A DNA stretch of 64,000 bases from positions 3,658,001 through 3,722,000 of the forward strand of contig NZ_JAUSXM010000001.1 of NCBI RefSeq assembly GCF_030815985.1, written 5' to 3'. This DNA comes from Paenibacillus sp. W2I17 (GTDB lineage Bacteria > Bacillota > Bacilli > Paenibacillales > Paenibacillaceae). The notes under the pieces were generated by a model. It did no database searches. It saw only the letters and a list, made by a program, of their open reading frames with translations, and was not told where the DNA came from. Shown here in pieces: positions 3,882 to 58,207 of the stretch; the first letter of the stretch is position 1; every line of letters starts with the position of its first letter. Made by a program: the position numbers and the translations under genes.

Positions 3882-4874
3882 ATGCAGCAACATCATGCAG
3901 AACGAGTTGAATTATTTGTTTCCAACACCCAGATCATCAAGAAGTCGTTCAAATGGCAACATGCGATGATGCAACGTCTGGTTGCCCTGCTCTATGCAGC
4001 GGAGAATAAAACAGCGGATGGGGAAGCTATTCGTCAAAGCCATGAGTTGATTAAGCAAAACACAAAACTTTTCTCTGCATTCAGAGGTAATTCGGCCATT
4101 AGCATTGCTGCCATGCTCTCCCTTACAACGGATGAAGAGACGAGACTGGCAGACACCTTGCATGTCTATGACTTGATGAAAGAGATCAAATTTCGCAACT
4201 CTGATTATCTGGTTATTGCCGCCTATCAGATCGCTACTCAGACATCACCTGACCAGTTTCAACCTACGGTGGAGCGGGCCAAATTATTTTATGACGGCAT
4301 GAAAGCAGAGCATCGTTTCCTCACTGGACAGGATGACTACATTTTCGCTGCCATGTTAGCCCTTTCCGATCTCAACGTAGATACTGGTGTGGCACGTATG
4401 GAACAACTCTACGGGGAATTAAAACCGGAGTTCTCTTCCAGAAACAGTGTGCAGGCGTTAACACAGGTACTGGTTCTTGGAGATGATTCCCCGGATGCAG
4501 GTGCTCGTGTGATTGCCTTAAATGAAGCTTTTCGCAAAAGGAATCTTCGAATGGACAAAACGTATACGTTAGCCTCTCTCGGAATACTTTCTCTACTGCC
4601 TTCGGACAGAGACTCATTAGTGGATGAAGTCGCGGAAACAAATGACTGGTTACGGACTCAAAAAGGCTTCGGTGCCTGGTCAATCGACAAACAGGAATTG
4701 CTCCTGTTCTCGTCTGCTCTGGTAGCCATTCAACATGTGGAGAATCTGCGGAACGGTGTGCTTACGACAGCAATCTCAACCAGTATCACAAATATTATCA
4801 TCGCTCAACAAGCAGCCATGGCCGCAACTGCCGCAGCATCGGCTGCTGCCGCTTCTTCATCATCATCCAACTAA
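3882..4874 (+). CDS. DUF4003 family protein
   Basis: A 330-residue soluble, mostly helical protein resembling DUF4003 proteins of Bacilli, whose function is unknown. It has an Arg/Lys-rich N-terminus, a central segment beginning FRNSDYLVIAAYQ, and an Ala/Ser-rich low-complexity tail ending in a run of Ser and Asn. ATG 3882 is chosen because GGAGG at 3870-3874 is seven bases upstream; a GTG at 3876 would touch the ribosome site. The gene stands alone and converges on the APH-like gene. No catalytic motif is recognised. Confidence 0.8.
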   Translation: MQQHHAERVELFVSNTQIIKKSFKWQHAMMQRLVALLYAAENKTADGEAIRQSHELIKQNTKLFSAFRGNSAISIAAMLSLTTDEETRLADTLHVYDLMKEIKFRNSDYLVIAAYQIATQTSPDQFQPTVERAKLFYDGMKAEHRFLTGQDDYIFAAMLALSDLNVDTGVARMEQLYGELKPEFSSRNSVQALTQVLVLGDDSPDAGARVIALNEAFRKRNLRMDKTYTLASLGILSLLPSDRDSLVDEVAETNDWLRTQKGFGAWSIDKQELLLFSSALVAIQHVENLRNGVLTTAISTSITNIIIAQQAAMAATAAASAAAASSSSSN

Positions 4875-18500: not shown

Positions 18501-18698
18501 GTTATGTCTTTGTCTCCTCTAACCATGTCATATATCAACATTATTATAACGAGTACAGGATGGGTTGGATACTGCAATCCAGGATTTCCGGGAAGCCTTT
18601 AATCAACCTCCCGTTCAACTGGCCCAACAAGACGGACACTAACACCCACATATTTTCGTATGAACCCGATCTGATCTTAAGTCGAAACGGGTATCTCG

Positions 18699-40870: not shown

Positions 40871-42737
40871 GTGGCGTTTATCCCGCTAAACTGCCCCAAT
40901 TGCAACGGAAAAATTGAATACAAGAAGGATGAGGTTTTAAAGTGTCCCTATTGTGAAACAGAGCTTTTTATTGAAGCAAAATCATGTCTATTACGTAGAC
41001 CAGACCATTAATCATTACCACGGAACGCCCCCTAAAGCACCGCTGAAGCAGACTGCCTCCGTAAAGGTAATGCTGATACTGATGTTCGTCCTAGCTGGCG
41101 CCATCGGTACATATTTTTATTATAGCAACAGCTCCACCTATCCAAAAACAGAAGCCAATCTGCCTGTACGAAAGATGCCTGAAAGCGAGGTTCTGCTCTC
41201 ATTTTTGCGAGATATCTTCGATAAAGGGTCCGCCTTGCCAACAGAGGAGGAATTGGCTCGTATTCGCTATTTAACCGTAGAGCATTCGGAGAATGATCAG
41301 TGGAAGTTTACATATAGCCTCTCCGATCCCTTCAGCGATGAACAGGCCGAGAAGATCACTTATGTTACTCAAGATAAAAAACTGAATAGCCAGCGGATTG
41401 ATCAGCGAGATTTTGAAGCTTTTAAGGGACTGACGACATTGGACCTGACAAATACCTATGAAATATCCCAGACGGACCAAACCACTTTGGCCCATATGCC
41501 AGGATTAAAAAGTTATGGAGGCGCTTTTAACGAATCCTTCAGTACATTTTCGGGCTACTTTGGCGACAAGTCTAAAATTACGGAGCTTTCCACTCAGCTT
41601 CGCAGCAATCAGGAGTTGGCCCTACTACTGGAATTCCCCAATCTGAACTCTTTATCCATTACCTATGTGGATGAGTCCGTAACAGATTTTCACTTGTTAA
41701 ACCAATTGCCAATCAAGTCCCTGTCGCTCACCTTTGTCGATGAACTCGGATGGTTGTCGTCCATGACCGGGCTATCATCCTTGTCTATACAGTACAGTGA
41801 AACCACAGACCTGCAGCCGCTGTATGCCTTGACCCAGCTTCAGGAGCTTCAGTTGTCCTATTTAACGAACGTAAAGTCCATCGACTTTGTGCAAAATATG
41901 CCTGCTCTACAAACGCTAGATATTGAAAATGTAAACATCTCGAGCCTGGAGCGCTTGACCGGCAAAAACTCCATTACTACACTACGCCTGGCTTCTCTAA
42001 GTCAACTTGGTTCGGTAAAAGCTATCAATAGCCTGTCCTCTTTGCGGGAATTAACGTTGTCCGGCTACTACGAGAATGCAGAAGCGCTGACTCTGCCTAA
42101 AGTAGAGCGAGTGGAAATTCCAAGCTCCTTTCTCCCCGGGCTAAAGGCCCCGGCTACAACCAGTCTGACGCTCCGTGGCGGAAGTGGGGAATTGAACTTG
42201 GCTGCGCTGAGGAAATTCCCGAAACTGGAGCAACTCTCGCTCTGGGAGATCGATGAAATAACCCGTCTTGCCGCCCTGGACGGCTTGTCCCGCCTAGAGA
42301 CCTTAAACATTTACGACTCGTCACTGTTCAAGGAAAGCGATGCCTTATTTCGTTTGAAGCAGGTGAAATCTTTGGTGTGCTCCGAGTGTAGGCTGAACTT
42401 TGAACAAAAGGCGGCCGCGGAGAACAGCGTGCTTGAACATTTGACCTTAGAGCAGCCATATTTCAGCATAAACAACACCTCAGTTACTGAAGTTGACCAA
42501 ATGATGCCTTACTTTGTCAACATGTCCGCTCTACATTCCTTCACTCTGCAAGACAGCAATTTGGCGTCTCTCGAATTTATGAGTAACTGGCAGGCCATAG
42601 AAGAGCTTCATCTCGAGAACAATGCCATTTCCAATATCGAGACCCTAAGCCAGCTGCCTAATCTGCAAAAGGTATATCTATCCGGTAATTCCGTACAAAA
42701 CAAATCCGTGCTTGGTACGGGTGTGCACGTATATTAA
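40871..42737 (+). pseudogene. Zinc-ribbon / membrane / leucine-rich-repeat protein, broken by one base
   Basis: The start is GTG 40871 behind GGAGG, giving an N-terminal zinc ribbon (LNCPNCNGKIEY and LKCPYCETELFIEA). That frame ends at 41011. The next frame, open from 40953 to 42737, continues the same protein: QNHVYYVDQTINHYHGTPP, one transmembrane helix (near LMFVLAGAIGTYF), then about 500 residues of leucine-rich repeats such as LPIKSLSLTFVDEL and LEELHLENN-type turns. Removing one A from the AAAA at 40978-40981 joins them as ELFIEANHVYYVDQT. Intact, it would be a membrane-anchored sensor-like protein of about 620 residues; function unknown. A sequencing error is as likely as a true mutation. 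Confidence 0.7.
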
Positions 42738-42802
42738 TTACCGCCTGGGATGATGGGTATTTTTAGACTACTATAGTTAATGATGGTATTGAAACAAAGA
42801 CA

Positions 42803-42849
42803 AGAAGGGGTTCGAGAATTGATACATGATTCTCGAACCCCTTCTGTTT
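42803..42849. terminator. Strong 17-base hairpin terminator
   Basis: Perfect arms AGAAGGGGTTCGAGAAT and ATTCTCGAACCCCTTCT. It follows the LRR gene on the plus strand. On the minus strand it lies five bases after the RlmD-like fragment stop, as expected of an ancestral rlmD terminator. Confidence 0.8.
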
Positions 42850-42853
42850 ATGT

Positions 42854-42898
42854 TTAGCTTCTAACCAACATCGCTACCGACTCCACACGGGATGAGTG
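42854..42898 (-). pseudogene. 3'-end fragment of an RlmD-type methyltransferase gene (copy 1)
   Basis: The minus strand reads HSSRVESVAMLVRS then stop. This matches the HxxHVESVxLL ending of RlmD/RumA proteins, including [11 protein letters not shown] of the complete rlmD in this window. Upstream the frame breaks (TAG directly before His). The fragment is in the same orientation as rlmD and sits beside a strong terminator. Function as an integration-site relic is inference. Confidence 0.5.
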
Positions 42899-43109
42899 CT
42901 AGACCGTACAATAACCTAATACGATGTGGCTACATCCACCTATTCAAGCAATCTTATATCAGCCGTCACTCAGTCTTTCGATTGTTGAATACTTTACCCT
43001 ATCCTTAGATGTCGCACCAGAAAAGGCTCTTGCAAAATGATTAGGGAAGCGATCCTAGAATCAGGAATTCTGTTACAGTAAGTCCCTCATTTTCTTTCTC
43101 CTCGTCCCT

Positions 43110-43697
43110 TTACTTTTTATTCGAATCAGAACGCTGATTGACCGCGCCAAAAATATGATACGGTGTTATCCCCTTTGAAAATAGACTATCGATCAGCTTG
43201 ATCAATTCTTCCGACGATAGATCTTTGTCTCTGTGTATCCAAAGGCGAAACATAGATATTAATGTTGATATGTAAAACTCGATGATGTATGGTGCCAAGA
43301 CATCATCTGTTGGAAAATCCACAATCAATCGCTCAAAGGGAATTTCTCTTTTCAAGCGTTCCACAAAATGAACAGAACCATAGTCGCCCAATATAGCTTT
43401 AAGAACTGAAATTTCCTCTGCATTTTCCAAGCATTGAAGTGCATCTTGGATAGTATGTGTAGAAAACTCTCTGCCTGCCATTTCCTCCTTAATGGATTTC
43501 AAAATACGCTCTTCAACGCAGTCCAACAACTCATAGATATCACTAAAGTATTGATAAAATGTACTCCGATTATATCCTGATTGGTTAGCAATCTCTTGAA
43601 TGGATATCTTTTCGATTGGTTTTCGGCAATATAAATCACAGAATACATTTATAAATGTCTGCCTTGTTTTTTCCGTAATTTCAGGTTGCTTATTCAT
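43110..43697 (-). CDS. TetR family transcriptional regulator
   Basis: A 195-residue regulator with an N-terminal helix-turn-helix (EKISIQEIANQSGYNRSTFY at about residues 28-47, then YFSDIYELLDCVE) and a helical ligand domain. ATG 43697 follows GGAGG by six bases. It is divergent from a ketopantoate-reductase-like gene, with ACAAC/GTTGT dyad DNA between, and probably represses it. The same arrangement of unrelated-looking paralogs recurs at 56543-58207. Confidence 0.9.
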   Translation of the reverse strand: MNKQPEITEKTRQTFINVFCDLYCRKPIEKISIQEIANQSGYNRSTFYQYFSDIYELLDCVEERILKSIKEEMAGREFSTHTIQDALQCLENAEEISVLKAILGDYGSVHFVERLKREIPFERLIVDFPTDDVLAPYIIEFYISTLISMFRLWIHRDKDLSSEELIKLIDSLFSKGITPYHIFGAVNQRSDSNKK

Positions 43698-43791
43698 TAT
43701 TGACCTCCATTTTCTGTTCAATTGATTATACGACAGATATTAAAAATCTGATGGTTGATGACCGTATAGTGAATCTATACAATAACATTAT

Positions 43792-43803
43792 ACAACACGT
43801 TGT
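43792..43803. promoter_or_regulatory. Candidate TetR operator
   Basis: ACAACACGTTGT has five-base arms ACAAC/GTTGT around a two-base centre. It lies 43 bases before the reductase start in the divergent region. Confidence 0.4.
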
Positions 43804-43846
43804 TTGATTATTGACAAAGATGAATATGGATATTTAGGAGGCTAAG

Positions 43847-44785
43847 ATGAGAATTTTATTTTTCGGTAGAGGTGTAATATCGACCCAATACGCTTGGGCT
43901 TTAGAGAAGGCAGGGCATACCGTTGAGTTTTACGTTAGAAAAGGGAGAAAAGAAACGTTCGGAAGTCATATAGCGCTTGAAATGTGGGACGCACGAAGAG
44001 GAAAACAGTTCATCCAAGAAAGCTGGAAAGTCAAGCTGCATGAGGAGATAAGCCCAGATTACGATCTCATTATTGCGAGTGTCAACACGGAGCAACTTCC
44101 CGAAGCAGCAAAATTACTTTCGACTACTGCTGGTAACAACCCGATCCTAATATTCAATAATATTTGGCAGGATTTAAGATCATCAATCTTGCCCCTGTCT
44201 ATGAACAATGTTGTCTTTGGGTTCCCAGGAGCAGGAGGCGGCATTGAGGACAATAAGCTTAGGGGCGGCTTTTTAAAAATGATATTTCTGGAAAAACCAC
44301 GGGTAGGCACGGAACAGATAAACAACAAGGTCAAAGAACTATTTGAAAGCGCCCATTTTAAAATCAATTGGATCAAGGATATGCAAAGCTGGTTATGGAA
44401 TCACTATGCCATGAATGCGGCGATGGAGACCGAGGTGTTAAAACGGGGAAGCTTCCCAGCACTCTTGAATCATAGTGACTCATTCGCAATTGTCGGCAAG
44501 AGTATGCGGGAAATGAAGCCTGTTCTTAAAGCAAGAGGCGCAAAGATGGACGCGATTACTCTACTGTTGACCAAGATCCCACCGGCACTTATCGGCACGC
44601 TGTTTAACAAGGTTATTTTTGCAAAGGGCAGCTTACCACGACTTTTCATTGAATACAATAATAGTAAGTCCAGTTTTGCAGTACTTGAAGTTGTAAGAGA
44701 AGCCAAAAAGTTAGGTATACCTTTGCCACATCTTACCTTGGCATTAGAAAACACTGAACAACACACAGCTATTAAAAACGGATAA
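43847..44785 (+). CDS. Ketopantoate reductase-like (ApbA/PanE family) oxidoreductase
   Basis: A 312-residue NAD(P)-dependent reductase. The Rossmann motif is FFGRGVISTQYAW (residues 5-17), degenerate in that GRGVIS replaces GxGxxG. The C-terminal helical domain contains WNHYAMNAAMETE. A true PanE is unlikely: the catalytic Lys region is poorly matched and the gene pairs with a TetR repressor, so it probably reduces another 2-keto acid or an electrophile. The gene starts behind AGGAGG. It lies between the two RlmD-like fragments. Confidence 0.83.
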   Translation: MRILFFGRGVISTQYAWALEKAGHTVEFYVRKGRKETFGSHIALEMWDARRGKQFIQESWKVKLHEEISPDYDLIIASVNTEQLPEAAKLLSTTAGNNPILIFNNIWQDLRSSILPLSMNNVVFGFPGAGGGIEDNKLRGGFLKMIFLEKPRVGTEQINNKVKELFESAHFKINWIKDMQSWLWNHYAMNAAMETEVLKRGSFPALLNHSDSFAIVGKSMREMKPVLKARGAKMDAITLLLTKIPPALIGTLFNKVIFAKGSLPRLFIEYNNSKSSFAVLEVVREAKKLGIPLPHLTLALENTEQHTAIKNG

Positions 44786-44911
44786 ACTGGAAAACTTGAT
44801 ATTGTTCAGACCAACATCAACTCTACTAATCATTATATAAACCATCATCCGACGAACGGAAGCCTCATTAAATGCCCTTCGCTGAATGGATTAATTTGGT
44901 TATAACAAATA

Positions 44912-44939
44912 TAGCCCGAACTCTAGAAGCTTCGGGCTA
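44912..44939. terminator. Hairpin terminator
   Basis: Perfect nine-base arms TAGCCCGAA and TTCGGGCTA. It follows the reductase gene on the plus strand and the RlmD-like fragment on the minus strand. Confidence 0.6.
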
Positions 44940-44981
44940 ATTAGCTATTTATTAAAAACAGGTAAATCTAGCTTCAAAACA

Positions 44982-45041
44982 CTACACCCTAACCAACATC
45001 GCCACTGACTCTACATGTGACGAGTGTTCAGTGAGAACAAA
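44982..45041 (-). pseudogene. 3'-end fragment of an RlmD-type methyltransferase gene (copy 2)
   Basis: The minus strand reads FVLTEHSSHVESVAMLVRV then stop, open for about 24 codons. It shares HSS-VESVAMLVR with copy 1 and SHVESVA with the RlmD ending. At the DNA level 44989-45055 and 42861-42928 are clearly related (both begin CTAACCAACATCGC and end in ACGATGTG). It separates the TetR/reductase module from the restriction operon. Confidence 0.5.
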
Positions 45042-45138
45042 TCTTATACGATGTGCCCCCATCAAATAAACGTCTGACTACCCATCTTTTACGGCTGTAC
45101 AGAGAAAATTAACTAAACGTCTTTATCTTAATGTTGTA

Positions 45139-45174
45139 AAGCCCAAGACCTGAATAGAACAGGGTCTTCGGCTT
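45139..45174 (-). terminator. Terminator after the ImmA/IrrE-type gene
   Basis: Arms AAGCC-C-AAGACC and GGTCTT-C-GGCTT pair with one mismatch. It follows the end of the restriction operon by about 100 bases; the T run is weak. Confidence 0.5.
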
Positions 45175-45272
45175 ATAATTACAACTTATTGGTTACTTAA
45201 AAGTGAGTTCTTACCATCACTACCTTGTCCATTGATAGGGTGACACCTTGCCCATCATCCACGAATATCGAA

Positions 45273-46043
45273 TTACAAGAAATCCACTTTGAGAAGAGTC
45301 AAGACACTTCCGGACAGTTTATCTGCTCTTGAATATTCTTTCAATGAAATTGCTGAGCCTAACTTATTTCTTGTAATCCAGATTTTAGGATCAACAGATG
45401 AGTACCCAGTCATTCGAAAATTTGAAATCAGACACTCATAGGCAGATGATTTGTTATGGATAGAAGCACCTAATTTCAAGATATTAATCTTACCTACGAG
45501 ACTCTTTGACATTCGAAGATGAGTAATTACACCATGTTTAGAACCAATAAAGGCATAATTTCCCAAATGAAAATCGAGTATTCGAAACACGGCTACAAGC
45601 TTGGAAACTACGAATTCATTACTGATTGCTTTGATTGTATCAAAGTCGAATGGTGCTGACATAGATATGGGCTTGACCATTTGTTCAGGAAGAAGAAATT
45701 CTTTTGCAAATTGGTTCGCCTCTAGCTCAAGTGGCTTTCTAGTAGAATCTAACATATCGGTTCGGGAACATTCAAACTGCTGTCCTTTGTGATTTAAGCT
45801 AAAATGTCCCAGTTCATGGGCTTTTGTAAAATTAATTCTTCCTGCATTCTTTATATCTGTATTGATAAGAATGATTGTCTTGCCTTTGGCACGAATTAAG
45901 CTTCCCATATAGTTTGAATTCCCATAATCCATTTCATCGTAGATGATATTATAATGTTCGAAGATTTGGTTAATGCTTAAAGCAGGTGAAGATGAAATAC
46001 TAAAATCACGCAGCACCTGTTGTGCTTTTTGAGTCGGTATCAT
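45273..46043 (-). CDS. ImmA/IrrE-type zinc metallopeptidase at the end of the hsd operon
   Basis: A 256-residue protein with the M78-type zinc motif HELGH (H76, H80) and the later ligand Glu in LELEANQFAKEFLLP (about residue 108). It has no N-terminal helix-turn-helix, so it is of ImmA rather than XRE-fused type. ImmA-type peptidases cleave repressors or regulators, for example ImmR of ICEBs1. Here the ATG overlaps the hsdS stop by four bases, so it is translated with the restriction system. A role in controlling or tuning that system is possible but inferred. The C-terminal 100 residues are not recognised. Confidence 0.87.
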   Translation of the reverse strand: MIPTQKAQQVLRDFSISSSPALSINQIFEHYNIIYDEMDYGNSNYMGSLIRAKGKTIILINTDIKNAGRINFTKAHELGHFSLNHKGQQFECSRTDMLDSTRKPLELEANQFAKEFLLPEQMVKPISMSAPFDFDTIKAISNEFVVSKLVAVFRILDFHLGNYAFIGSKHGVITHLRMSKSLVGKINILKLGASIHNKSSAYECLISNFRMTGYSSVDPKIWITRNKLGSAISLKEYSRADKLSGSVLTLLKVDFL

Positions 46044-47695
46044 TGTTGCGAATTTCCGAGTAACTCAATCACTCTATTTTTAATTTTTGCCTTTGTATCT
46101 GAATTAATATCCCCATCGGAACGCGCAGCGATCTCCCAATCTTCGATATCATAAGAGTTTACTAAAGGAAACTCTACAACATTATAATCCACATTAGTTG
46201 AGTTAAATGCCTCTTGTAACACAGAATTCATTAGCAATTCGCTTTCCTGCTTCGATTGCTTTATAGTTTGTTCCAATTCATCACAAAGAGCCATCAGTTG
46301 ATCGACCTTTTCAACGATACTTATTTGTTCGTTGAGAGGGGGAAGAGGAAATAAAATTTTAGAAGAAATATCACCCGACCCAATATTTCCTTGATTAGCT
46401 GTTCCAGTTTCAGTTTCAAAGATAAAATCCAATATTACGCTTGATTTCAAGAATACATTAATTAATTTTACATAAAGATTTTCAGAACTTCTTAAACATC
46501 CAACTCTCTGATTTAAAAACAATTTTTTGTTTAAATGGGACGTCTCAATTAAGCATGTATAAAAATAATCGCGTTTTCCTCTAGTACCCGTCATCGTAAC
46601 TAATATATCTCTTTCTTTTAACCGATATAATTCCTTTTCTCTAGCAATATCCTCAGGTATATAGACAGGATTTGAGTCCAATAACAATTTATCATTTTTA
46701 ACATTGCCTAATCTCACTATCTGGTTGTTTGAATATTCGATGTAAGAATTACTCTTGAAAGCAAATCCTCCCACAAACTGAGTAATTTCCCCTAATCTCA
46801 CCCATTCCCAACCCTGCGGCAGTTCATACGGAATCTCATCTTCAGTAATTGGAGGTAGCGACTTTTCTTTCTTGATTTTCTTCTCTTTAATCAATTGCTC
46901 TTTCTCAGCCTTTATCTTCTCCAACAACACACTCGCTGCTTCATCGTTCGGGTCCTGTGGCACAAGTTTACCTTGAACAGCTTCTTGAAGAATTGATTGA
47001 CGTAGGCTAAGAATCAGACTCTCAGTCAATTTCATCGAATTCTCTAATTCCTCACAACAGGTTCGAACACTAAAAAATCTCTCAATTTGTTTCAAGAGTT
47101 CATTATTTAAAAACTCCTTACCGATAACCCCTTCAAATTCACATTGATTTAAAAATGTTACGACTTCTTTTTGCATTTCTAGACTTGGAACAGGAATATC
47201 AGTTTCTTTGACCACTCTCTGACTTATATTCGGCTGAGCGCCACCAAAACTGCTTTCAATAAACTCTTGTCTTTTTTGTTTAAAAAACCAAAACATATAA
47301 TCCTTATCAATTTCATCATTTGGATATATAGCACATACAGCTTGATTTGAGGCAGCTTCAAAATCTAAGACCCCTACTTTCCCAACTGTAGCACCATATA
47401 ACGCTAAAACCAAAGTGCCTTTAGGATATAATTTGGCTGATGAATTTTTAAGACCTGCTTCTGTTAAATACTCCTCACAGCTTGTAATATAGGAATCATT
47501 CAATTCACCAGATTTTATCCAAGGGATATTTCCACCATAATATTCATTAATTCCACGTTTAGGAGTTCCACCGCTTGTCGATTCAGCTATCTCTTCTATT
47601 TTTTTTATAGGGACATTGGAATATAGATAATTAAACACGATCTTTGCAACTGCAACTGAAGGATTTGATTTTTTATAGAATTTATATAGACTCAT
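46040..47695 (-). CDS. hsdS: Type I restriction-modification specificity subunit HsdS
   Basis: A 551-residue DNA-recognition subunit with two target-recognition domains. The first lies in about residues 30-200 (SGGTPKRGINEYYGGNIPWIKSGEL region at its head). A conserved helical spacer follows (LRQSILQEAVQGKLVPQDPN), then the second domain from LPQGWEWVRLGEI to LPPLNEQISIV and a second coiled spacer. About 50 extra residues follow LLMNSVLQEAFN; this tail is not usual. The four bases before hsdM end and the ATGA overlap with the peptidase gene show one operon. Target sequence cannot be read. Confidence 0.93.
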   Translation of the reverse strand: MSLYKFYKKSNPSVAVAKIVFNYLYSNVPIKKIEEIAESTSGGTPKRGINEYYGGNIPWIKSGELNDSYITSCEEYLTEAGLKNSSAKLYPKGTLVLALYGATVGKVGVLDFEAASNQAVCAIYPNDEIDKDYMFWFFKQKRQEFIESSFGGAQPNISQRVVKETDIPVPSLEMQKEVVTFLNQCEFEGVIGKEFLNNELLKQIERFFSVRTCCEELENSMKLTESLILSLRQSILQEAVQGKLVPQDPNDEAASVLLEKIKAEKEQLIKEKKIKKEKSLPPITEDEIPYELPQGWEWVRLGEITQFVGGFAFKSNSYIEYSNNQIVRLGNVKNDKLLLDSNPVYIPEDIAREKELYRLKERDILVTMTGTRGKRDYFYTCLIETSHLNKKLFLNQRVGCLRSSENLYVKLINVFLKSSVILDFIFETETGTANQGNIGSGDISSKILFPLPPLNEQISIVEKVDQLMALCDELEQTIKQSKQESELLMNSVLQEAFNSTNVDYNVVEFPLVNSYDIEDWEIAARSDGDINSDTKAKIKNRVIELLGNSQQ

Positions 47696-47698
47696 GAT

Positions 47699-49126
47699 TT
47701 ACACAAAACTCCTTAATTGAAGTAATAAATCATTTGTCTTTTTATTAGCTTCAAGAAGTCGATCTACTAATTCGTCAGTTGAAAACGTATCATCAACGGT
47801 CTTAATTAATGGATTTTTCAAATCTAAGTTATAATTACGTTTTTTTATATCCTCTATACTAACTTTCCAAGCATTATCATTCTCAACTCTGTTCTCCCAC
47901 CACTTCTTTTCCAATTCAAACTCTTCATGTCGAATTGGTTTAGTCTTAGAATAACTTTTATACCCTACAGGATATGGATGCTCGAAGTACCAAATATCTT
48001 CTGTAGGTTTTCCTTTTTCAAAAAACAACAAATTCGTATTAATACCCGTATAAGGAGCAAACACACCTTTTGGCAATCGGATAATAGTATGCAAGTTAAA
48101 TTCTTCAAGTAACTTTTCCTTAATTGCCGTTTTGACACCTTCACCAAATAGAAAGCCATCTGGCAAGACTATACCTGCACGACCGCCATCTTTGAGCATA
48201 TACATCAGTAGCACCATAAATAAGTCTGCAGTTTCTTTCGTCCGAAACTTCTCGGGAAAGTTCGTTTCTATCCCCTCTTCTTCAATACCACCAAAGGGAG
48301 GATTTGTCACAATCACATCTACTTGTTCTATCGGTTTATAATCTCTCACATTTCTAGTTAATGAATTATCATGTCTGATCTTTGGGGCATCAATGTCATG
48401 CAATATCAGATTTGTGATCGCAAGCACATGAGGCATCGGTTTTTTCTCAATTCCCATGATCGTTTCCTGCAGCACCTGATTGTCTTCCACATTCTTGATC
48501 TGCCCTGTGTTTTTAAAGTGTTCAATCGTGCTAGTTAAATACCCACCTGTTCCACAAGCAAAATCTAACACTTTCTCACCTAGAATTGGGTTGACCATAT
48601 CAACGACAAATTGTGTTACTGGTCGTGGCGTATAGTATTCTCCTGCGTTTCCTGCGTTTTGAAGATCTTTGAGAATACTTTCATATATATCATTGAATGT
48701 ATGACGATCTTCCTGTGCGGAAAAGTCGATCTCATTCAACTTATTGATCACTTGACGCATCAATGTACCAGACTTCATATAGTTATAAGAATCTTCAAAT
48801 ACAGCTTTCACGATAAAAGCCTTCGGATCACTATATTCATCAAGAACCATTTCTTTCAGCTCTTTAAATAGCTTATTATTAACGAAATCCAGTAATTCAT
48901 CGCCTGTCATTCCTTCATCATTTGCTGCCCAATCTCGCCAGCGCAAGCCTTCGGGAACAACTTGAGTATATTCGTCCCGCATTAACTCCCATTCTTCTTC
49001 CTTCGCATCGAACACCTTAAGGAATACCATCCACACTAATTGAGAAATACGTTGTGCATCGCCATCGACACCTGCATCTTTGCGCATTGTATCTTGAACT
49101 GATTTTATAACTGATGAAACTGACAT
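47699..49126 (-). CDS. hsdM: Type I restriction-modification methyltransferase subunit HsdM
   Basis: A 475-residue N6-adenine DNA methyltransferase. It has an HsdM N-terminal helical domain, GEYYTPRPVTQF, the S-adenosylmethionine motif VLDFACGTGGYL and the catalytic motif NPPFGG (N6-adenine class). It works with HsdS to modify host sites and should remain active even if hsdR is broken. ATG 49126 follows AAGGAG. It lies 24 bases after hsdR. Confidence 0.95.
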   Translation of the reverse strand: MSVSSVIKSVQDTMRKDAGVDGDAQRISQLVWMVFLKVFDAKEEEWELMRDEYTQVVPEGLRWRDWAANDEGMTGDELLDFVNNKLFKELKEMVLDEYSDPKAFIVKAVFEDSYNYMKSGTLMRQVINKLNEIDFSAQEDRHTFNDIYESILKDLQNAGNAGEYYTPRPVTQFVVDMVNPILGEKVLDFACGTGGYLTSTIEHFKNTGQIKNVEDNQVLQETIMGIEKKPMPHVLAITNLILHDIDAPKIRHDNSLTRNVRDYKPIEQVDVIVTNPPFGGIEEEGIETNFPEKFRTKETADLFMVLLMYMLKDGGRAGIVLPDGFLFGEGVKTAIKEKLLEEFNLHTIIRLPKGVFAPYTGINTNLLFFEKGKPTEDIWYFEHPYPVGYKSYSKTKPIRHEEFELEKKWWENRVENDNAWKVSIEDIKKRNYNLDLKNPLIKTVDDTFSTDELVDRLLEANKKTNDLLLQLRSFV

Positions 49127-49150
49127 TATTCATTCTCCTTCTGAGGTAAC

Positions 49151-51525
49151 CTATGCTGTATAAATCTCTTTTTGCAATTCTTTAATCACTGTTAAATAGC
49201 TAGTTTTCCCACCAAATCTTTTAACGATTTCAATGGGTGAACCGTAAACTTGGAATTCAGGAATCTTCAACACTTCCAAGTTTTCTAAATTAGCCAAACC
49301 TTCATCAGCGTATTTATCCAATAGTGCTTCTAATACCACTCTTGCGCTTTCACTATACTTTGCGAAATAGTTCCGTTTCTTCACATTGTTCGCCCGTTCT
49401 TGACGAGTCAATGGAGGCATATCAAAAGCCACATGACAGATTAGATCAAATGGATCTAAGTCTTTTCCTACTTCATCCTGCAACTCATCAAGTAAAATAC
49501 CTTGAGACTCTAACTCTTTCAATATCGCATCTTTCTTGTCCGCATCGTTCCATTTTTGTAGAAAATCATTGAGCGAGTGATATTCATTTTTCATATTTTT
49601 CTTCGTGTAATCAATCAACGATTCGTTTATCAGTTTACCATCTTTGTCGTAGTAGTAAACCCGATGATTCAATACTTTCACTTCGACATTGTGGACATAA
49701 TATTTCGCTGGTGGTTCATATTGTATACCACTTCCCCCAGCAGTTGAGTCATCACCAATTCCGTCTCCGTAGCCATCAGGTATTCCCTCTTCACCGTCAT
49801 CCATGTCAGGATCATTTGGTTCATCATCTTCAGGAGGTATATCTCCTGTCGGTGTCATCACGACAACGGGATCACCATCGAATTCTTTATCGGCAAATAA
49901 CTTCGTTACATTTCTAAAGTCAATAATCGTAAAATACAATTTCCCATGATCTTCTCGAATTCTCGTACCGCGCCCTATAATCTGTTTGAATTCGATCATG
50001 CTGCCAATATTTGAATCAATAATAATCAATTGGCACGTTTGTGCATCCACGCCTGTACTCATTAATTTACTTGTAGTTACTAATACAGGATAAGGTGTGT
50101 TGGGATCGATAAAATTGTCTAGTTCTGCTTTCCCTTCTTCACTGTCCCCCGTGATACGCATGACATATTTTGCGTTTTTAGCAACCATATCAGAGTTCTC
50201 ATTAACTAACGCTTGTCTCATCCGTTCGGCATGATCAATATCAACACAGAAAAAGATCGCTTTTGCCATGCGCGAATTATTATTCTTCATATAATCAGAT
50301 ACCATTTTTGCAACTGTCTTCGCTCTTTGTTCAAGAATAAGCTTTCTGTCAAAATCCTTAATGTTATATTCTCGGTCTTCAATCTCATGACCGTATTTAT
50401 CCTTCTGTCCTTTCGTAGGACGATATCCTTCAACATCCTTATCTAGCGTAACCCTTACAACTTTATATGGAGCAAGGAACCCATCATCTATTCCTTGCTT
50501 CAATGAATATGTATACACAGGATCTCCGAAATACGTTAGATTTGAAACTTCCTTAGATTCTTTTGGAGTAGCCGTTAAACCAATTTGAGTCGCACCATTA
50601 AAATAGTTTAGTATCTCTCTCCAAGAAGAGTCTTCCTTAGCACTACCTCGATGGCATTCATCAATAACAATAAGATCAAAAAAGTCAGGTGAGAACTCTT
50701 TGTACACATCTTGAAATTCTTCAGTACCAGTAATGCCTTGATATAAAGCTAAATAAACCTCATGAGCTTTATCAACTTTCCGGTTTTTAATTTTAATCAT
50801 TTTATCTCCAAAAGGAGCAAAGTCATTCGCCATTGTCTGATCAACAAGAATGTTGCGATCTGCTAAGAATAGAATTCGCTTCTTCATTTTAGACTTCCAA
50901 AGACGATAAATGATTTGAAAGGCGGTATATGTTTTACCAGTCCCCGTTGCCATGACAAGTAGAATACGATCTTGTCCTTTTGTGAAGCTTCAATAGTTCT
51001 GTTGATTGCAATTCGTTGGTAATACCTTGGGCTTTTAGAGCCTTGATCAAAATAATAATCCTGGGTGATTGTTTCTTCAGCTTTTTGATCAATACCCTTA
51101 AATTGCTTATAGCGATTCCATAAATCTTCAGGCGAAGGAAATTGGCTAAGAGAGATCTCCTGTTCTACCATTCCTGATTGAGCGGTTCGATCATGTTCTA
51201 AGAAGCCGTCACCGTTGGAAGAATAGACAAAAGGAATGTCCAGTATCTCTCCATAGTTCAATCCTTGCTGCATACCTGAACCGAGTGAATGCTTATTGTC
51301 TTTTGCTTCAATAATAGCTATGGGAATGTTGGTTTTGTAATAAAGAATATAATCGGCTCGTTTTTTATCTCCACGCGAAACCATCTTTTTACGAACGATT
51401 ACTCTGCCATCTGTAAAAGTAACTTCCTCACGTATTTGCTTTTGTAAATCCCATCCTGATTGGATGAGTGCAGGTGTTATGTATTTAGAGCATATATCGC
51501 GTTCTGACATGTCCTTCTTATTCAT
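49151..51525 (-). pseudogene. hsdR: Type I restriction endonuclease subunit HsdR, frameshifted
   Basis: The N-terminal frame (from ATG 51525, behind GAGGGGG) encodes the nuclease domain (RADYILYY...IIEAKD). The second frame (to 49151) holds the motor: Walker [16 protein letters not shown] box, TATPKES, the RecA2 segment IGRGTRIR and the C-terminal HsdM-contact domain. They would join as [20 protein letters not shown] if one G were added to the GG at about 50976-50977 (plus-strand CC). Intact length would be about 790 residues, normal for EcoEI-type HsdR. As given, the nuclease is cut off from the motor, so restriction should be off. This may be a true mutation, phase variation or a sequencing error. 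Confidence 0.85.
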
Positions 51526-51991
51526 TGATAAACCCCCTCATCGAAAAATACCTTAAAATCATTCCATTAACTTACTTCACAATCTATCCGGTAATCCTTT
51601 ATTCGACAGATTATTACCTCCATTATATAACATTTCAATTAAACTTGGCTGTAAGCAGTTATATGTTTCCATAAAAAAACTCCCAAATTAGGGAGGTTAA
51701 GGGGCTGATGAAACTTCTGAATATTATTGCTGAAATCTTATTTCCACTAACCATGAGCAATTGCGTTCCTTAATTCTAGTAAAGGAAGGTTTACAGCCCA
51801 AAATGAATAAGAGTTCATCTTCATGCCTTTAAGCATAAAATTGATAAGCTTGCAAAGATAGACATCGAAGATGAACGCATCATGAAACAACTTTTTCAAA
51901 TATATATAACTTGAAGTTAGTAAAGATTGTTGAACTAAAATTCCCTACAATAATCACTCGTTTTATTTAATAGGGTATGAAAATGAGGGGC
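51526..51991. other. AT-rich gap between rlmD and hsdR
   Basis: These 466 bases contain a likely hsdR -10 (TATAAT on the minus strand, about 51622-51627), a short terminator for rlmD (51673-51695), and a 30-codon plus-strand fragment (about 51820-51922) with coding-like residues but no start signal. If islands inserted at the rlmD 3' end, one junction should lie here. Confidence 0.45.
51673..51695 (-). terminator. Weak terminator downstream of rlmD
   Basis: Five-base arms CTCCC/GGGAG with seven T after the hairpin on the minus strand. It lies about 300 bases beyond the rlmD stop. Confidence 0.5.
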
Positions 51992-53809
51992 TTAATTGCT
52001 AGTCCCTGCCCATTTTAGAACCGCTACACTTTCCACATGCACCGTGTGTGGGAACATGTCCACCGGCGTTACCTCAACCGTGCGATACCCGCCATCCTCC
52101 AGCACACGCAAGTCACGTGCCAATGTGCTCGGATTACAGCTCACATACACCACTCGCTCCGGCTTCATCTCCAGGATCGTTTCCAGCAAACGTGGATCGC
52201 AGCCTTTACGTGGCGGATCGACAACGATCACGTCGGCCTCGATGCCTTGTTCTTTCCAGCGTGGAATAACATCCTCGGATGCACCCACTTCGAACTTCAC
52301 GTTACGCATCTCGTTCAACATGGCATTGCTACGCGCATCCTCGATCGCTTCAGGTACGATCTCTACCCCGTACACCTGATCCGCATGTTGCGCGAGGAAA
52401 AGAGAAATCGTTCCGATGCCGCAATAGGCATCAATTACCGTCTCTTTGCCAGTCAGTCCTGCGTACTCTACCGTCTTCCCATACAGTACTTCCGTCTGCA
52501 CCGGATTCACCTGATAGAACGAACGCGCTGAGATCGCAAACTGCACATCACCAATATAATCATAGATTACATCGCGGCCCCACAGGACGCGGGTCTCATC
52601 GCCAAAGATGACGTTGGTTTGTTTCTTGTTCACGTTCTGGCAGATGCTCGCCACATGCGGAATCGCTTCACGGATACTGCCAATCCATTCGTCTTTGTAC
52701 GGGATGTCTCGACCATTGGTGACCAGTACGAGCATCATCTCGCCCGTGCGGAATGCCTTCTTCACGACCACATGGCGCATCAGACCACGACCTGTCTCCT
52801 CGTTATATGCACTGATTCCAAAATGACTGCCGATCTCCTTCACCTTCGCAACCACTTCGTCATTGTGCTCATGCTGAATGAGGCAACACTCCATATCGAT
52901 GATGCGATGGCTTCCTTTAGCGTAAAAACCACCTACCAGACCACCCTCGGTAACGCCAATCGGCACCTGTGCCTTATTCCGATAGCGCCATGGCTCGTCC
53001 ATTCCCATCGTAGGCAGTACACGAATGCCCTGCTCCGTATCTTCTTCGTTCATGACACCTTCGAGACGAAAACGAATACGATTGCTTCCAATCATTTGTG
53101 CTTTAGAAGATGCTTGTCCAGGTTGAGTTGGCTCATTCTCTTCCTGTACCAACCGCTCCTCCAGCTTCGCCTCACCAACTGAAACGTCATCTTGCAAGTG
53201 CTGTTCGGCGCCCTCATTATCATCCTGCACGTTGGATGCCAACGTCTCTGCATCCTCCACCATCACGTTCAACTTGCCAATCCGCTGCAAATTATCTACT
53301 ACCAACTGGCGTTTCCACGCAAGCTGTCCGGCATAGCTCATATGCTGGATCTGGCAGCCGCCGCACTGATCGTAGATCGGGCAAGGCGCGGACACACGAT
53401 CCGGACTTGCCTTCACGATCTCCAGCAGTTTGGCGTAACCATACTGCTTCTTGGTTTTCATCACGCGCACACGCACGGTTTCACCTGGAAGCGCACCCTG
53501 CACGAAGAGCGTGTATCCATTCGCACGACCTACACCCTCGCCGTCATGGTTCATACCAATGATGTCGATGACGGTCTCTTCATTTTTGCTAACGGGCAGT
53601 CCTTCGATTGGTGCAGATTCACGCGCTCTCCCTTTTGGACGAACGGCAGAAAGAGATGCGCCTTGTGGCCGCACCTCTTTTCCTTGCTGACGTGGTGATG
53701 GACGAGATGATTGACTTGGCTGACGGGACGCTGAAGCGTTCCCTTGCCCCTGAGAGGCAGCCGAATTCCGGCGGTTTTTTCCACGACCGCTGCGGTTCGT
53801 ATTAGACAA
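51992..53809 (-). CDS. rlmD: 23S rRNA (uracil-5)-methyltransferase RlmD/RlmCD type
   Basis: A 605-residue enzyme that methylates uracil in 23S rRNA. It starts with a low-complexity Ser/Gln/Arg tail (about 70 residues), then a TRAM domain, an iron-sulfur Cys cluster ([15 protein letters not shown]), and the methyltransferase domain with [14 protein letters not shown] and the catalytic Cys in [13 protein letters not shown]. An acidic insert of about 50 residues near position 200 is unusual. TTG 53809 is the most plausible start (GAAGTGA upstream); the only nearby ATG is in a frame that stops at once. The C-terminal [12 protein letters not shown] is the sequence echoed by the two fragments at 42854 and 44982. 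Confidence 0.92.
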
Positions 53810-53837
53810 CGTACATTCACTTCTTTCTTTTTAGTAT

Positions 53838-54719
53838 TTAACGATACAACATCAGATGATGACGCAAATTCGTAAACGTAGCTGGCAATGTGCCGCCCAA
53901 CTCTCCATCGAGGTTCAGCTGCACATAACCCGGCGACGTAACTTCCATATGACTCGTCTGGAAATGAACCACTTTCTTGTCGTTCAGATGCTCCCCACGC
54001 AGCGCGAGCGTTACGAGGCGGATCATATCGGCCAGATTACATTTGCGGACACCGATCACATCGAACAGACCATCATCAATGGTTGCACCCGGAGCCAGCT
54101 TCTCAAACCCCCCGACCGAATTGGTATTGGCGATGAGGAATAACATGAATTCATCATGGATTTCTTCCTGACCGTCGGCGCGAATAATCAGCTCCTGAGG
54201 AGACAGGCTCGCCATTTTCTCAATACCCTTCATATAATAGGCCAGTTGCCCAATCATCGTTTTCAGACGACTCGGTACTTCATAGGTCAGTTCAGTCAAT
54301 GAGCCGCCACCGGCGATGTTGATAAAATATTTATCATTCGCTTTGCCCAGATCGAGCGGACGAAGTTGCTGTTTAATGACCAGATCCACGTAATCTTCCC
54401 ACTGTCTCGGAATGCCGAGTGCACGTGCAAAATCATTCGTCGTTCCCAAAGGAAACACACCCAGCGGAGGACGATTCTCCCGCTCAGCCATACCGTTAAT
54501 CACTTCGTACAACGTGCCATCGCCACCAGCAGCAATAATCATGTCATATCCGCGTTCAATTGCCAGTTCAGCTTCCCGGGTTGCGTCACCTTCACCCGTT
54601 GTTGCGTGACATGAAGCTTCAATACCACCTTGATCCAAACGCTGCAAAATATCAGCCAGACGTTTCTTCATTTCTTCCCGGCCTGAGGTCGGATTATATA
54701 TTAAGCGAGCTTTTTTCAT
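53838..54719 (-). CDS. Diacylglycerol/lipid kinase, DgkB type
   Basis: A 293-residue cytoplasmic lipid kinase that phosphorylates diacylglycerol to return it to phospholipid synthesis. IYNPTSGR is at residues 7-14, the ATP motif GGDGT at 65-69 with YEVINGM following, then PLGTTNDFARALGIPR and a C-terminal beta domain with VTSPGYVQLNLDGE. ATG 54719 is eight bases after AGGTGG; GTG 54731 is less well placed. It precedes rlmD by 28 bases, a pairing known in other Bacilli (dgkB next to an rlmCD gene). Confidence 0.93.
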   Translation of the reverse strand: MKKARLIYNPTSGREEMKKRLADILQRLDQGGIEASCHATTGEGDATREAELAIERGYDMIIAAGGDGTLYEVINGMAERENRPPLGVFPLGTTNDFARALGIPRQWEDYVDLVIKQQLRPLDLGKANDKYFINIAGGGSLTELTYEVPSRLKTMIGQLAYYMKGIEKMASLSPQELIIRADGQEEIHDEFMLFLIANTNSVGGFEKLAPGATIDDGLFDVIGVRKCNLADMIRLVTLALRGEHLNDKKVVHFQTSHMEVTSPGYVQLNLDGELGGTLPATFTNLRHHLMLYR

Positions 54720-55244: not shown

Positions 55245-55961
55245 ATGAAAAAAATCGTGTTAATGCTCCTGGTCTTTCTTATGGCATGTATTCCTTGGGT
55301 CACCGTTGTTGAAGCAGCAGAAATTAATCATGATCAGGTTGTCGGATTTCAGGAAGTCTCACCAGTCACCGTGACACAACAAGCGGCCAAGCGTTTTCAG
55401 CCGTTTTTGAAGGTCTATCATGGATGCGTGCCTTTCCCCGCAGTGGATCAACAGGGCAATACCAGCGCTGGCCTGAATACGTCCGGGTCATCGAATGGAA
55501 ACTGTAGCTCAAGTACAGGGCAGATCTACTCCCGCTCCACATGGCACAATGGGGTGTGGGCTATCATGTATTCATGGTATTTCCCCAAAGACTCCCCTTC
55601 CTCTGGACTCGGCCATCGTCATGATTGGGAAGGAATCGTCGTGTGGGTCGATAATCCGGCAGCTGCCAATTCCAAAATCCTCTCTATCGCATATTCCGGT
55701 CACGGCCAGTTTACCAAAGTTACACCGAGCAATAACAATACACAAGGTAACCATCCGTTGATTTCCTATAATAGTACCTGGCCACTGAACCATGAGCTTG
55801 GCGTTACTAATGCTGTGGGTGGAACTCAGCCTTTAATCGGATGGGACGATCTGACTTCTGCCGCACGAAATGCACTCAACACGACAAACTTTGGTAGCGC
55901 CAACGTGCCTTTCAACGATAACAATTTTACCAACAATTTAAACAAAGCCTGGTTTAGATAA
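55245..55961 (+). CDS. Secreted necrosis-inducing-like protein (NPP1/NLP family)
   Basis: A 238-residue exported protein. A signal peptide (KK then a hydrophobic stretch, probable cleavage after VEA at residue 24) is followed by the NLP fold. The hallmark heptapeptide GHRHDWE is at residues 123-129, binding a divalent metal. Cys61 and Cys87 fit the single disulfide of type 1 NLPs. In plant pathogens, NLPs bind sphingolipids and damage plant membranes; bacterial versions occur in Bacillus and Pectobacterium. Whether this one is cytolytic is unknown. ATG 55245 follows AAGGAGAAG. It is a single gene with its own terminator. Confidence 0.93.
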   Translation: MKKIVLMLLVFLMACIPWVTVVEAAEINHDQVVGFQEVSPVTVTQQAAKRFQPFLKVYHGCVPFPAVDQQGNTSAGLNTSGSSNGNCSSSTGQIYSRSTWHNGVWAIMYSWYFPKDSPSSGLGHRHDWEGIVVWVDNPAAANSKILSIAYSGHGQFTKVTPSNNNTQGNHPLISYNSTWPLNHELGVTNAVGGTQPLIGWDDLTSAARNALNTTNFGSANVPFNDNNFTNNLNKAWFR

Positions 55962-56542: not shown

Positions 56543-57469
56543 TCATTTAAGGATAGTAAAATCTCTTTTCAGCACGTCCCAATGGGGAGTCGGGATGCCT
56601 GTTGTCTTTTTCCAATCGGTAAATGCATTATTTAATGCCTCAATCTCTCCAAAAGAACCTGCGACTAGCTTATGAATTGGTAGCACACTATAGATCTTCA
56701 ACAGAAGGTACAACATCCGTTGATGCTTGCGAACCATTTTAGCCTGAATCTCCGGTATAATCGTTATGCCCATAGCTTCAAGAACACTAAAGCCTTCATC
56801 CATCGCCCCAATCATATGTTGGATTTGCTTTCTGTTCCCGTCCAACTTGATCAACTCACGCTCCTCATTAAAGCTCACCGCATTAAGCATCAGAATGGGG
56901 ATGATATGGCTTTTCAGCCAGGCATCAATATCGCTCAGAACATTTAACTTGTATTTCACATGTTGAAAAGCTTGATCCAGCAAAGGTTTAAAGCCTATCT
57001 CTCCGTCCAGACTGCCGATTACCATCTGTCCGCTGCCTCCACCGATCGATAACATGCGGTCCTTTTCCCGCTTCCCTCCACTCACATGGAATCCAAACGC
57101 GACCTGTTTTGCTACCCTGCTGTTTTCCTCCAAAAAGTTTTGCATGCTTCGCGCATCTGCGTTGTTTCCCACAATCACAATATTACTGCTCTGATTCTCT
57201 GCCAGAATAGGTAACACTGAAGGAAAATCGTTATATTTCATGACAACAAAAATCAGATCATATTGGTCATCCACTTCCAACGTTCTGGCTACCCGAACCT
57301 GATCAACTGTCGTTTTGAATTGAAAAATATGCCGGATGACGATTCCATCCTTCTCCAGCTCCTCTGCCCGCTTCCCTCTAGCCAGAATAGTAACATCATT
57401 GCCGCCGCGCACCAGAACCTGTGCCAGTTGACTGCCCAAGACCCCAGCACCATACACTAATATCTTCAT
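56543..57469 (-). CDS. Ketopantoate reductase-like (ApbA/PanE family) oxidoreductase, second copy
   Basis: A 308-residue NAD(P)-dependent reductase with an intact Rossmann motif VYGAGVLGSQLA (about residues 5-16). The C-terminal helical domain (KSHIIPILMLNAVSF) binds the keto acid in true PanE. The pairing with a divergent TetR gene suggests an inducible reductase of another substrate rather than the housekeeping enzyme. It is clearly divergent in sequence from the copy at 43847-44785. ATG 57469 follows GAGGGAT. Confidence 0.85.
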   Translation of the reverse strand: MKILVYGAGVLGSQLAQVLVRGGNDVTILARGKRAEELEKDGIVIRHIFQFKTTVDQVRVARTLEVDDQYDLIFVVMKYNDFPSVLPILAENQSSNIVIVGNNADARSMQNFLEENSRVAKQVAFGFHVSGGKREKDRMLSIGGGSGQMVIGSLDGEIGFKPLLDQAFQHVKYKLNVLSDIDAWLKSHIIPILMLNAVSFNEERELIKLDGNRKQIQHMIGAMDEGFSVLEAMGITIIPEIQAKMVRKHQRMLYLLLKIYSVLPIHKLVAGSFGEIEALNNAFTDWKKTTGIPTPHWDVLKRDFTILK

Positions 57470-57597: not shown

Positions 57598-57637
57598 GAA
57601 TGATTCCTTATTGTTGAAAACCATCATAGGAGGGGCC

Positions 57638-58207
57638 ATGGACAGACGAGTACTCAAGACACGAAAGGCGATAATTGAAGCTTTTGTGGGGTTACTGGAG
57701 GAACAGGATTTCGAGCAAATTACGATAAACGATATTGCTGATCGGGCTAATGTAAACCGAGGAACCATCTATTTGCATTACGCTGACAAGTTCGACCTGT
57801 TGGATCAATGCATTGAGACCTATTTGCAGCAGTTGTTGGATGCCTGTATGATCGAAAGCTATACTACAACACCCGTTACGGCCAAGGATGCGCTGCTCAG
57901 AACTTTCCGTTATCTGGAACAGCATGCCTCTACCTATACCACACTTCTAACCAAAAAGGGTATTCCGGCATTCCGTAGTAAGTTGATGACATTGTTGGTC
58001 CAGGGAGTGGAGGAACAAATGGATGCCTGTGGCATCCAGGAAGGTATGAAAAAAGAGATCACCATACAGTTTCTTGCTTCCGCTGCAGTCGGTCTTCTGG
58101 AGTGGTGGATTATGAATTCCATGCCTTATCCGGCCGAGGAGATCGTTGACCAATTAATAAGTTTACTAGAGCTACATCTACATTTGCACGCACCCATTAA
58201 TGGATAA
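57638..58207 (+). CDS. TetR family transcriptional regulator
   Basis: A 189-residue regulator with an N-terminal helix-turn-helix (FEQITINDIADRANVNRGTI at about residues 29-48, then YLHYADKFDLLDQC). ATG 57638 follows AGGAGGGG; an upstream in-frame ATG has no ribosome site. It is divergent from the second reductase gene, with two inverted repeats between them, and probably represses it and itself. Confidence 0.9.
   Translation: MDRRVLKTRKAIIEAFVGLLEEQDFEQITINDIADRANVNRGTIYLHYADKFDLLDQCIETYLQQLLDACMIESYTTTPVTAKDALLRTFRYLEQHASTYTTLLTKKGIPAFRSKLMTLLVQGVEEQMDACGIQEGMKKEITIQFLASAAVGLLEWWIMNSMPYPAEEIVDQLISLLELHLHLHAPING

Follow-up and report, generated by a model that had tools for sequence, protein, structure and literature searches.

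The window analysed here is a 64-kb stretch of Paenibacillus sp. W2I17 (G000:C1:3658001-3722000; genome of 7.0 Mb on one contig; G and L numbers are our handles for genomes and loci). Its subject is the methyltransferase gene rlmD together with two short rlmD-like fragments lying downstream of it, which bracket two gene modules: a module with type I restriction-modification (RM) genes and an ImmA-like gene, and a module with a reductase gene and a TetR-family regulator gene. An earlier note, made from the sequence alone, had proposed that the fragments mark repeated insertion at the 3' end of rlmD. The features on which this proposal depends are listed by window position; labels such as "att core", "displaced" and "ancestral" follow the reading developed below.

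51992..53809, minus strand: rlmD, the target gene (TIGR00479, 558 bits)
52032..52039, minus strand: att core CATGTGGA within rlmD, codons H-V-E, left end of the RM module (core profile)
44982..45017, minus strand: fragment 2, displaced rlmD tail B (63/70 nt from the core identical to the intact tails of G036 and G042)
45010..45017, minus strand: att core CATGTAGA of tail B, right end of the RM module and left end of the reductase/TetR module (core profile, tail survey)
42854..42889, minus strand: fragment 1, displaced ancestral rlmD tail A (58/70 nt from the core identical to the intact tails of G012 and G047)
42882..42889, minus strand: att core CGTGTGGA of tail A, one change from the consensus (core profile, tail survey)
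42803..42845, minus strand: putative original rlmD terminator hairpin, adjoining the LRR gene (also 3' of intact rlmD in six relatives)
40953..42737, plus strand: leucine-rich repeat (LRR) gene, ancestral downstream neighbour of rlmD (adjoins rlmD in six genomes)

Displaced rlmD ends in the window and across the genus

To locate rlmD ends, a weight matrix was built from 73 rlmD 3' ends, which were identified by a pattern demanding part of DMFPHTxHVE (one end per genome in 73/73). The gene is present in 74 of 75 genus genomes, and downstream sequence was used for 73 of them (1.50 Mb in total; G029 was left out since its contig stops at rlmD). The downstream stretch was ~20 kb for most genomes, longer for a few, and shorter at contig ends (0.2 kb in G071, 5 kb in G040, 11 kb in G059). 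Applied to both strands of the full window at a score ≥8, the matrix returned three matches, all on the minus strand: the true rlmD end at 52039 (score 23.6), 45017 (36.4) and 42889 (34.5). The sequence read at both fragments thus lies on the minus strand where the earlier note had placed it, and the scan yielded three same-strand rlmD ends and nothing else, in agreement with its description of the fragments as RlmD-like and in rlmD orientation. Over 38 nt, the stretches 42861-42898 and 44989-45026 share 84% identity, and they form the first-listed direct repeat in 42001-54000. A search of the whole genome with the fragment pattern (≤3 mismatches) gave two matches, the two fragments themselves. 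With a random 99.9% level of 30 for the fragments' 70-nt tail comparison, the sequence comparison confirms both fragments as displaced rlmD 3' ends. Another gene family as their source was rejected on the 58/70 and 63/70 matches to intact rlmD ends; no family-by-family search was made.

The core profile was drawn from 39 tails scoring ≥15, comprising 31 without upstream identity to rlmD, 2 long fragments and 6 with upstream identity. Among these six, the G033 tail at 18579 is a third long RlmD fragment, and the G037 tail at 4445 (12/20 upstream identity) is more likely a serine-type arm. The 31 displaced tails match the rlmD consensus at 3-65% between -15 and -1 (81% at -5 being the exception), with 6% at -3 and 3% at -2, yet the match stands at 97% at positions 0 and +1 and at 97-100% across CATGT and the GA of the 8-nt core CATGTNGA. 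This core encodes His-Val-Glu near the end of rlmD, and it is there that the rlmD identity of displaced tails begins. Intact rlmD ends agree at 90-100% across the eight core bases, then at 85, 68, 55 and 40%, climbing again later. The derivation of the fragments from RlmD therefore holds from HVE onward; the residues preceding it (FVLTEHSS and HSS), which had been read as part of the RlmD-like sequence, appear to be element-end DNA, given the low identity at -3 and -2.

At the protein level, DMFPHTxHVE is common to 73/73 RlmDs, beyond which 53 distinct tails of 7-24 residues follow. The core Glu aligns with a residue of Streptococcus pneumoniae RlmCD that is Glu in structure 5xj1 and Gln in 5xj2; excerpts of PMC6235398 describe RlmCD E443 as the general base and report crystals made with E443Q. 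The last codon in the core is thus a catalytic one, with little protein left beyond it, and this would account for the freedom of incoming elements to rewrite the rest. By this comparison, the last 12 codons of the window's rlmD, those after HVE, are read as having been supplied by the newest element.

Displaced tails are widespread in the genus. At a score ≥12, 110 same-strand matches were found, of which 70 were the genomes' own ends and 40 were displaced tails (the window's two included) spread over 28 of the 73 genomes; no displaced tail was found on the opposite strand of the same 1.50 Mb at this threshold. One G005 match counted among the 40 (score 12.3, deep in a prophage-like stretch) is probably a chance hit. 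Probes of 27 nt taken 30, 60 and 90 nt upstream in rlmD each found 3 displaced copies, in G033, G067 and G068, and the -90 probe had 1 opposite-strand match. A second sample of 80 named loci, overlapping the genus set and with ≤10 kb downstream each, gave 22 displaced tails in 19/80 loci at a score ≥15, Saccharibacillus (L130) among them, and 0 on the opposite strand at that score. The named RlmD relatives are nearly all Paenibacillus, the first listed being Paenibacillus sp. PCH8 (94%). Since same-strand tails are many and upstream-probe matches few, what recurs downstream is the last few rlmD codons, in one orientation.

This pattern bears on a different origin, in which the fragments would be what is left of rlmD duplicates or paralogues after decay on the spot. 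Longer RlmD 3' fragments, as such decay would leave, do exist in three genomes (G033, G067 and G068; L138, L139 and L137, respectively): they are ~400 bp long, cover residues 466-598 with one in-frame stop, and end in tail B at sites that elsewhere hold only the short tail. The W2I17 genome, however, has one gene above the rlmD family cut-off, the bases immediately upstream of the core are not rlmD, the upstream probes have displaced copies in 3 genomes against 28 at the core, and the differing tails of the two fragments each fit another living rlmD end. We consider decay of paralogues extremely improbable and rejected it on the single rlmD, the non-rlmD bases upstream of the core and the scarcity of upstream-probe matches.

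Tails were also seen in other settings. In G046 (L192, rlmD orientation, positions 270 and 411), two displaced tails follow the core at 141 and at 282 nt; they look like nearly empty nested sites with short spacers that are alike. Outside the survey count, selectively fetched stretches held three further tails in G055 (L233) and one in G005 (L232), and contigs other than that of rlmD held two in G040 (L151) and one in G073 (L153).

Earlier states of the locus in relatives

Both tails displaced in the window are intact rlmD ends in other genomes. Tail A with its hairpin is the intact rlmD end in G012, G022, G047, G057, G058 and G070, and in these six genomes 146-226 nt separate the core from the LRR gene. 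The strong hairpin after fragment 1, which the earlier note had taken as the mark of an ancestral rlmD end, is thus found after intact rlmD in living relatives. Tail B is the intact rlmD end in G003, G015, G036, G042 and G051, where it is followed by the reductase, TetR and LRR genes. When the window's rlmD was joined at the core to tail A, alignments over the junction reached 88-91% in the six tail-A genomes and G073; the corresponding join to tail B gave 87-93% in the five tail-B genomes, with the full 230-nt tail side aligned in G015 and G042 and part of it in G003, G036 and G051. In the window itself, each module has a core at either end (52032-52039, 45010-45017 and 42882-42889, the middle one shared), so that attL and attR are kept.

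Repeated insertion at one target is supported because the number of displaced tails in relatives ranges from zero to three, with differing cargo, and because both earlier states are held by living genomes.

Recombinase remains, element ends and cargo

The earlier note had found no integrase, and no whole recombinase gene is present among the window's open reading frames (ORFs). A scrap of one is, as are two putative element ends:

51810..51902, plus strand: relic of a large serine recombinase (LSR) C-terminus, convergent with rlmD (99-row hidden Markov model, 20.8 bits, E 1e-5, six-frame window)
45018..45062, minus strand: element end (arm) upstream of fragment 2 (34/45 identical to a G024 element arm; random maximum 24)
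42890..42934, minus strand: element end (arm) upstream of fragment 1 (29/45 with G037 at a shift ≤3 nt, 24/45 with G048; random maximum 25)

In several relatives a serine recombinase is encoded in the interval from rlmD to a displaced tail. Matches to PF07508 were found there in G017, G031, G045, G048 and G068, with a decayed match in G039; the gene is open in G017, G045, G048 and G068, in pieces in G031 and reduced to the scrap alone in the window. A profile of the LSR C-terminus was built from 99 sequences, including the LSRs of G017, G045 and G048, and searched against the 73 downstream sets, giving 18 matches in 15 genomes, three of which (those same three genomes) arise by construction. 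Fifteen of the 18 lie <200 nt from a core: 12 follow a core at 45-163 nt and run antisense to rlmD, and 3 precede a displaced tail by 41-154 nt in sense orientation. The remaining matches are 328 nt (G045), 639 nt (a second piece, G037) and 1417 nt (G024) from the core.

The relic's 20.8 bits compare with 8.4 bits for the best of 60 reversed control loci. It lies 138 nt from the core, and the other antisense cases, extrapolated to the same profile position, lie at ~110-200 nt. Earlier searches for it were weak (single-query tblastn, E 0.013; five-sequence profile, E 0.0047, best control 3.2). A relic with the spacing seen in relatives suggests that the RM module either once was an LSR element or occupies one, and the RM genes probably arrived with the LSR whose scrap persists. 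The absence of an integrase thus stands for whole genes and does not extend to this remnant. That the elements are decayed is borne out: the integration genes have been lost from both modules, leaving an LSR scrap in the RM module and no trace in the reductase/TetR module.

Arm comparisons were judged against the maxima from 20,000 random 45-mers. The G024 element that carries the match to the fragment 2 arm is 8.7 kb long and contains LSR pieces. For the fragment 1 arm, the match to G048, which has an open LSR, is by itself not decisive.

Some recombinase ORFs extend into rlmD sequence. The G048 LSR ORF (L146:891-2525, minus strand) crosses the core and continues in antisense rlmD, the G068 LSR ORF (L136:12922-14631, plus strand) draws its stop codon from the core, and the last ~65 residues of a tyrosine-recombinase-like ORF in G005 (L147:9845-10474, plus strand) are antisense rlmD. 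Tyrosine-query matches beside nearly every rlmD were set aside, since most fall in the part of the G005 ORF from residue 145 on, which reads antisense rlmD. The label of a Ccr recombinase was rejected as well: against CcrA, CcrB and CcrC the four open LSRs score 72-138 bits and the G031 piece 41-47, with cut-offs of 700-900. Further away, 24-36 kb behind rlmD, G007, G008, G013, G026, G046, G061 and G063 carry serine recombinases, mostly as ORFs of ~560 aa; G007 and G063 have two each, ~33 kb apart, and short stretches round one of them in each genome (L216, L217) contained no rlmD tail.

A tyrosine integrase could have made both insertions instead of a serine enzyme. The G005 ORF lies beside rlmD and its tail keeps 18/20 rlmD nt upstream of the core, and tails in G009, G021 and G041 keep 16-19/20. 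The tails in the window, however, have 6/20 and 9/20 upstream identity and the relic is of the serine type, which leaves the tyrosine alternative highly improbable.

The cargo of the two modules is as follows:

49151..51525, minus strand: hsdR, in two overlapping frames at 50884-51525 and 49151-50953 (NF046051 positions 1-177 and 184-768)
47699..49126, minus strand: hsdM (PADLOC MTase_I, 704.5 bits)
46040..47695, minus strand: hsdS (PADLOC Specificity_I, 276.5 bits)
45273..46043, minus strand: ImmA/CapP-like metallopeptidase, overlapping hsdS by 4 nt (PADLOC capP, 137.3 bits)
43847..44785, plus strand: reductase, 2-dehydropantoate 2-reductase-like (profile match)
43110..43721, minus strand: TetR-family regulator (profile match)

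The earlier note had described the reductase/TetR pair and hsdRMS with ImmA as separable cargos; each is bounded by cores, and five relatives have reductase/TetR next to rlmD. Although hsdR, hsdM and hsdS are all present by profile, hsdR is split by a frameshift, which makes restriction doubtful; the homologous spans in G075 and G100 are free of stops. The ORF list and profile scans revealed no recognisable transfer gene in either module.

The two cargos differ in their distribution. At E 1e-60 the reductase is present in 19/75 genus genomes, every copy downstream of rlmD at distances up to ~63 kb. HsdM was found at E 1e-150 in 6/295 family genomes (drawn from a larger group), W2I17 included. 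The two nearest are in genomes of other genera, G075 (84%) and G100 (82%), while the one other match within the genus is in G009 (55%), and HsdM matches in the rlmD-downstream regions of the other 72 genomes were all <28% identical. This distribution points to horizontal arrival of the RM module. Beside the RM homologues in G075, G100 and G009 there was no LSR or RlmD match, and a tail scan, made for G075 and G100 only, found no rlmD tail.

These observations bear on a history in which the cargo came by homologous recombination of flanking genes with the tails hitchhiking, the site-specific events being old and belonging to other lineages. It would accommodate a window without a whole recombinase, an HsdM 82-84% identical to that of two other-genus genomes with no rlmD, LSR or tail match found alongside, and a reductase downstream of rlmD in all 19 carriers, a position that vertical or homologous inheritance would produce too. 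The LSR relic, in contrast, sits at the rlmD-proximal edge of the RM module at the usual distance, and the far arm of that module matches, at 34/45, the arm of an element with LSR pieces. We regard such exchange of flanking genes as unlikely, though less so than a paralogue or tyrosine origin.

Elsewhere in the genus the same slot holds other genes: an Ssp-type defence set in G021; an RM-like set with an LSR piece in G046; a radical-SAM-type gene cluster, recognised by eye from ORF sequences, in G004, G033, G037, G067 and G068; and a prophage-like element (by eye) with the tyrosine-recombinase-like ORF in G005. On the other side of rlmD in the window, a second reductase/TetR pair (56543-57469, minus strand; 57611-58207, plus strand) is distant from the module pair (26% over 197 and 33% over 80 residues), and a secreted protein, NLP-like by eye, is encoded at 55245-55961 (plus strand).

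Probable stacked elements at the 3' end of rlmD

We read the locus as a stack of site-specific elements at an rlmD hotspot, with a probability of about 0.92 on the sequence evidence. The 3' end of rlmD would serve as attB for site-specific integrative elements, with a recombinase, most likely an LSR, crossing over within the 8-nt core. On insertion, rlmD would retain everything through the catalytic Glu while the element supplied a new short coding tail and stop, and the old tail with its terminator would be displaced to the far end of the element. The next element would enter the regenerated core in rlmD and move the first one outward. For the window, the starting state would be rlmD with tail A beside the LRR gene. 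Entry of the reductase/TetR element would have given rlmD tail B and turned tail A into fragment 1; entry of the type I RM/ImmA element would then have given rlmD its present tail and turned tail B into fragment 2. Both elements would afterwards have lost their recombinases. The crossover chemistry, the order of arrival and the use of one kind of recombinase for both insertions are what we infer, and the modules are best read as two decayed candidate elements in tandem, resembling cis-mobilizable elements (CIMEs).

Several points weigh against this reading, which is drawn from sequence comparison. The present tail of the window's rlmD matches the nearest other tails weakly (34/70, where the random 99.9% level of 30 is that for the two fragments), and 45 of the 73 genomes have no displaced tail in the stretch taken. 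Tail A is absent between TetR and the LRR gene in G003, G042 and G051, where another hairpin is found, and a shortened tail A remains beyond TetR in G015 and G036. A simple 8-nt crossover would not produce the long RlmD fragments of G033, G067 and G068. A recombinase trace in the reductase/TetR module was sought by tblastn and the 99-row profile, and none was found. The two arms in the window agree with each other at 21/45, below the random 99.9% level of 22, so a single recombinase family for both events is unsupported by the arms. Finally, an older element could have taken on the RM cargo through homologous recombination.

The stacked-element reading has close parallels elsewhere. Excerpts of PMC4701971 and PMC5704250 describe streptococcal integrative and conjugative elements (ICEs) and integrative and mobilizable elements (IMEs) with a single serine integrase in rumA, where 3' parts of rumA and of the integrase gene are exchanged, and excerpts of PMC11578063 describe serine recombinases and nested insertions at a hotspot in the rumA 3' end of Dehalobacter. 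That the rumA/rlmD 3' end is a known integration site, as the earlier note stated, is thus documented in both groups. As far as these excerpts go, the streptococcal elements and the Paenibacillus locus share a 23S rRNA uracil-5-methyltransferase target; serine recombinases occur at the Paenibacillus site as open genes or pieces in relatives and as a scrap in the window. The 3' end of the target gene is exchanged at rlmD too (core profile, tails and junction alignments), and exchange of the integrase-gene 3' end is also seen in relatives G048 and G068. Unlike what is described for the streptococcal elements, the host here is Paenibacillus, the window has no whole integrase and no recognised transfer gene, and several tiers are stacked. 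The Dehalobacter case, as excerpted, differs in genus and cargo and in a bookend-gene region of 100-400 kb.

CIMEs are described in excerpts of PMC5704250 as having lost their integration genes while keeping both att sites, with accretion by later arrivals at the same site. The window modules resemble that description in being without integration genes, having att cores at both ends and being stacked. CIMEs and tandem accretion are reportedly treated in work by Pavlovic in 2004 and Bellanger in 2011. Staphylococcal and enterococcal cassette chromosomes (SCC/ECC) insert at rlmH according to excerpts of PMC6222049. They are alike in that Ccr profiles are among the best matches of the relatives' recombinases, and different in target gene and in Ccr scores far below the cut-offs; the SCC/ECC label was left unused, the target being rlmD (TIGR00479) instead of rlmH. 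Our literature search, which left subscription journals mostly uncovered, found no publication on rlmD integration in Paenibacillus, or on rlmD with an integrase and attB. The mechanism is known from the streptococcal rumA elements; what is new is the host, the cargo and the readable order.

A broader generalisation is tentative, and we think it less likely to hold in full than to fail: the RlmD tail after the Glu would be a swappable cassette genus-wide, unrelated serine and tyrosine recombinases would have converged on the same catalytic codons, and the decayed modules, with their cores preserved, would still be open to excision or transfer, one at a time or as a composite, by an incoming element whose recombinase matches. 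The locus would then act as a lasting port through which defence, biosynthetic and prophage genes are exchanged. For this chromosome, the three rlmD tails would amount to a stratigraphy that gives the relative order of gene arrivals, with earlier layers preserved in living species. The 3' end of rlmD is one Paenibacillus address at which cargo varies by species, and the sequence rule drawn from it, a core at the general-base codon followed by same-strand tails, may detect such elements even after their recombinases have decayed.

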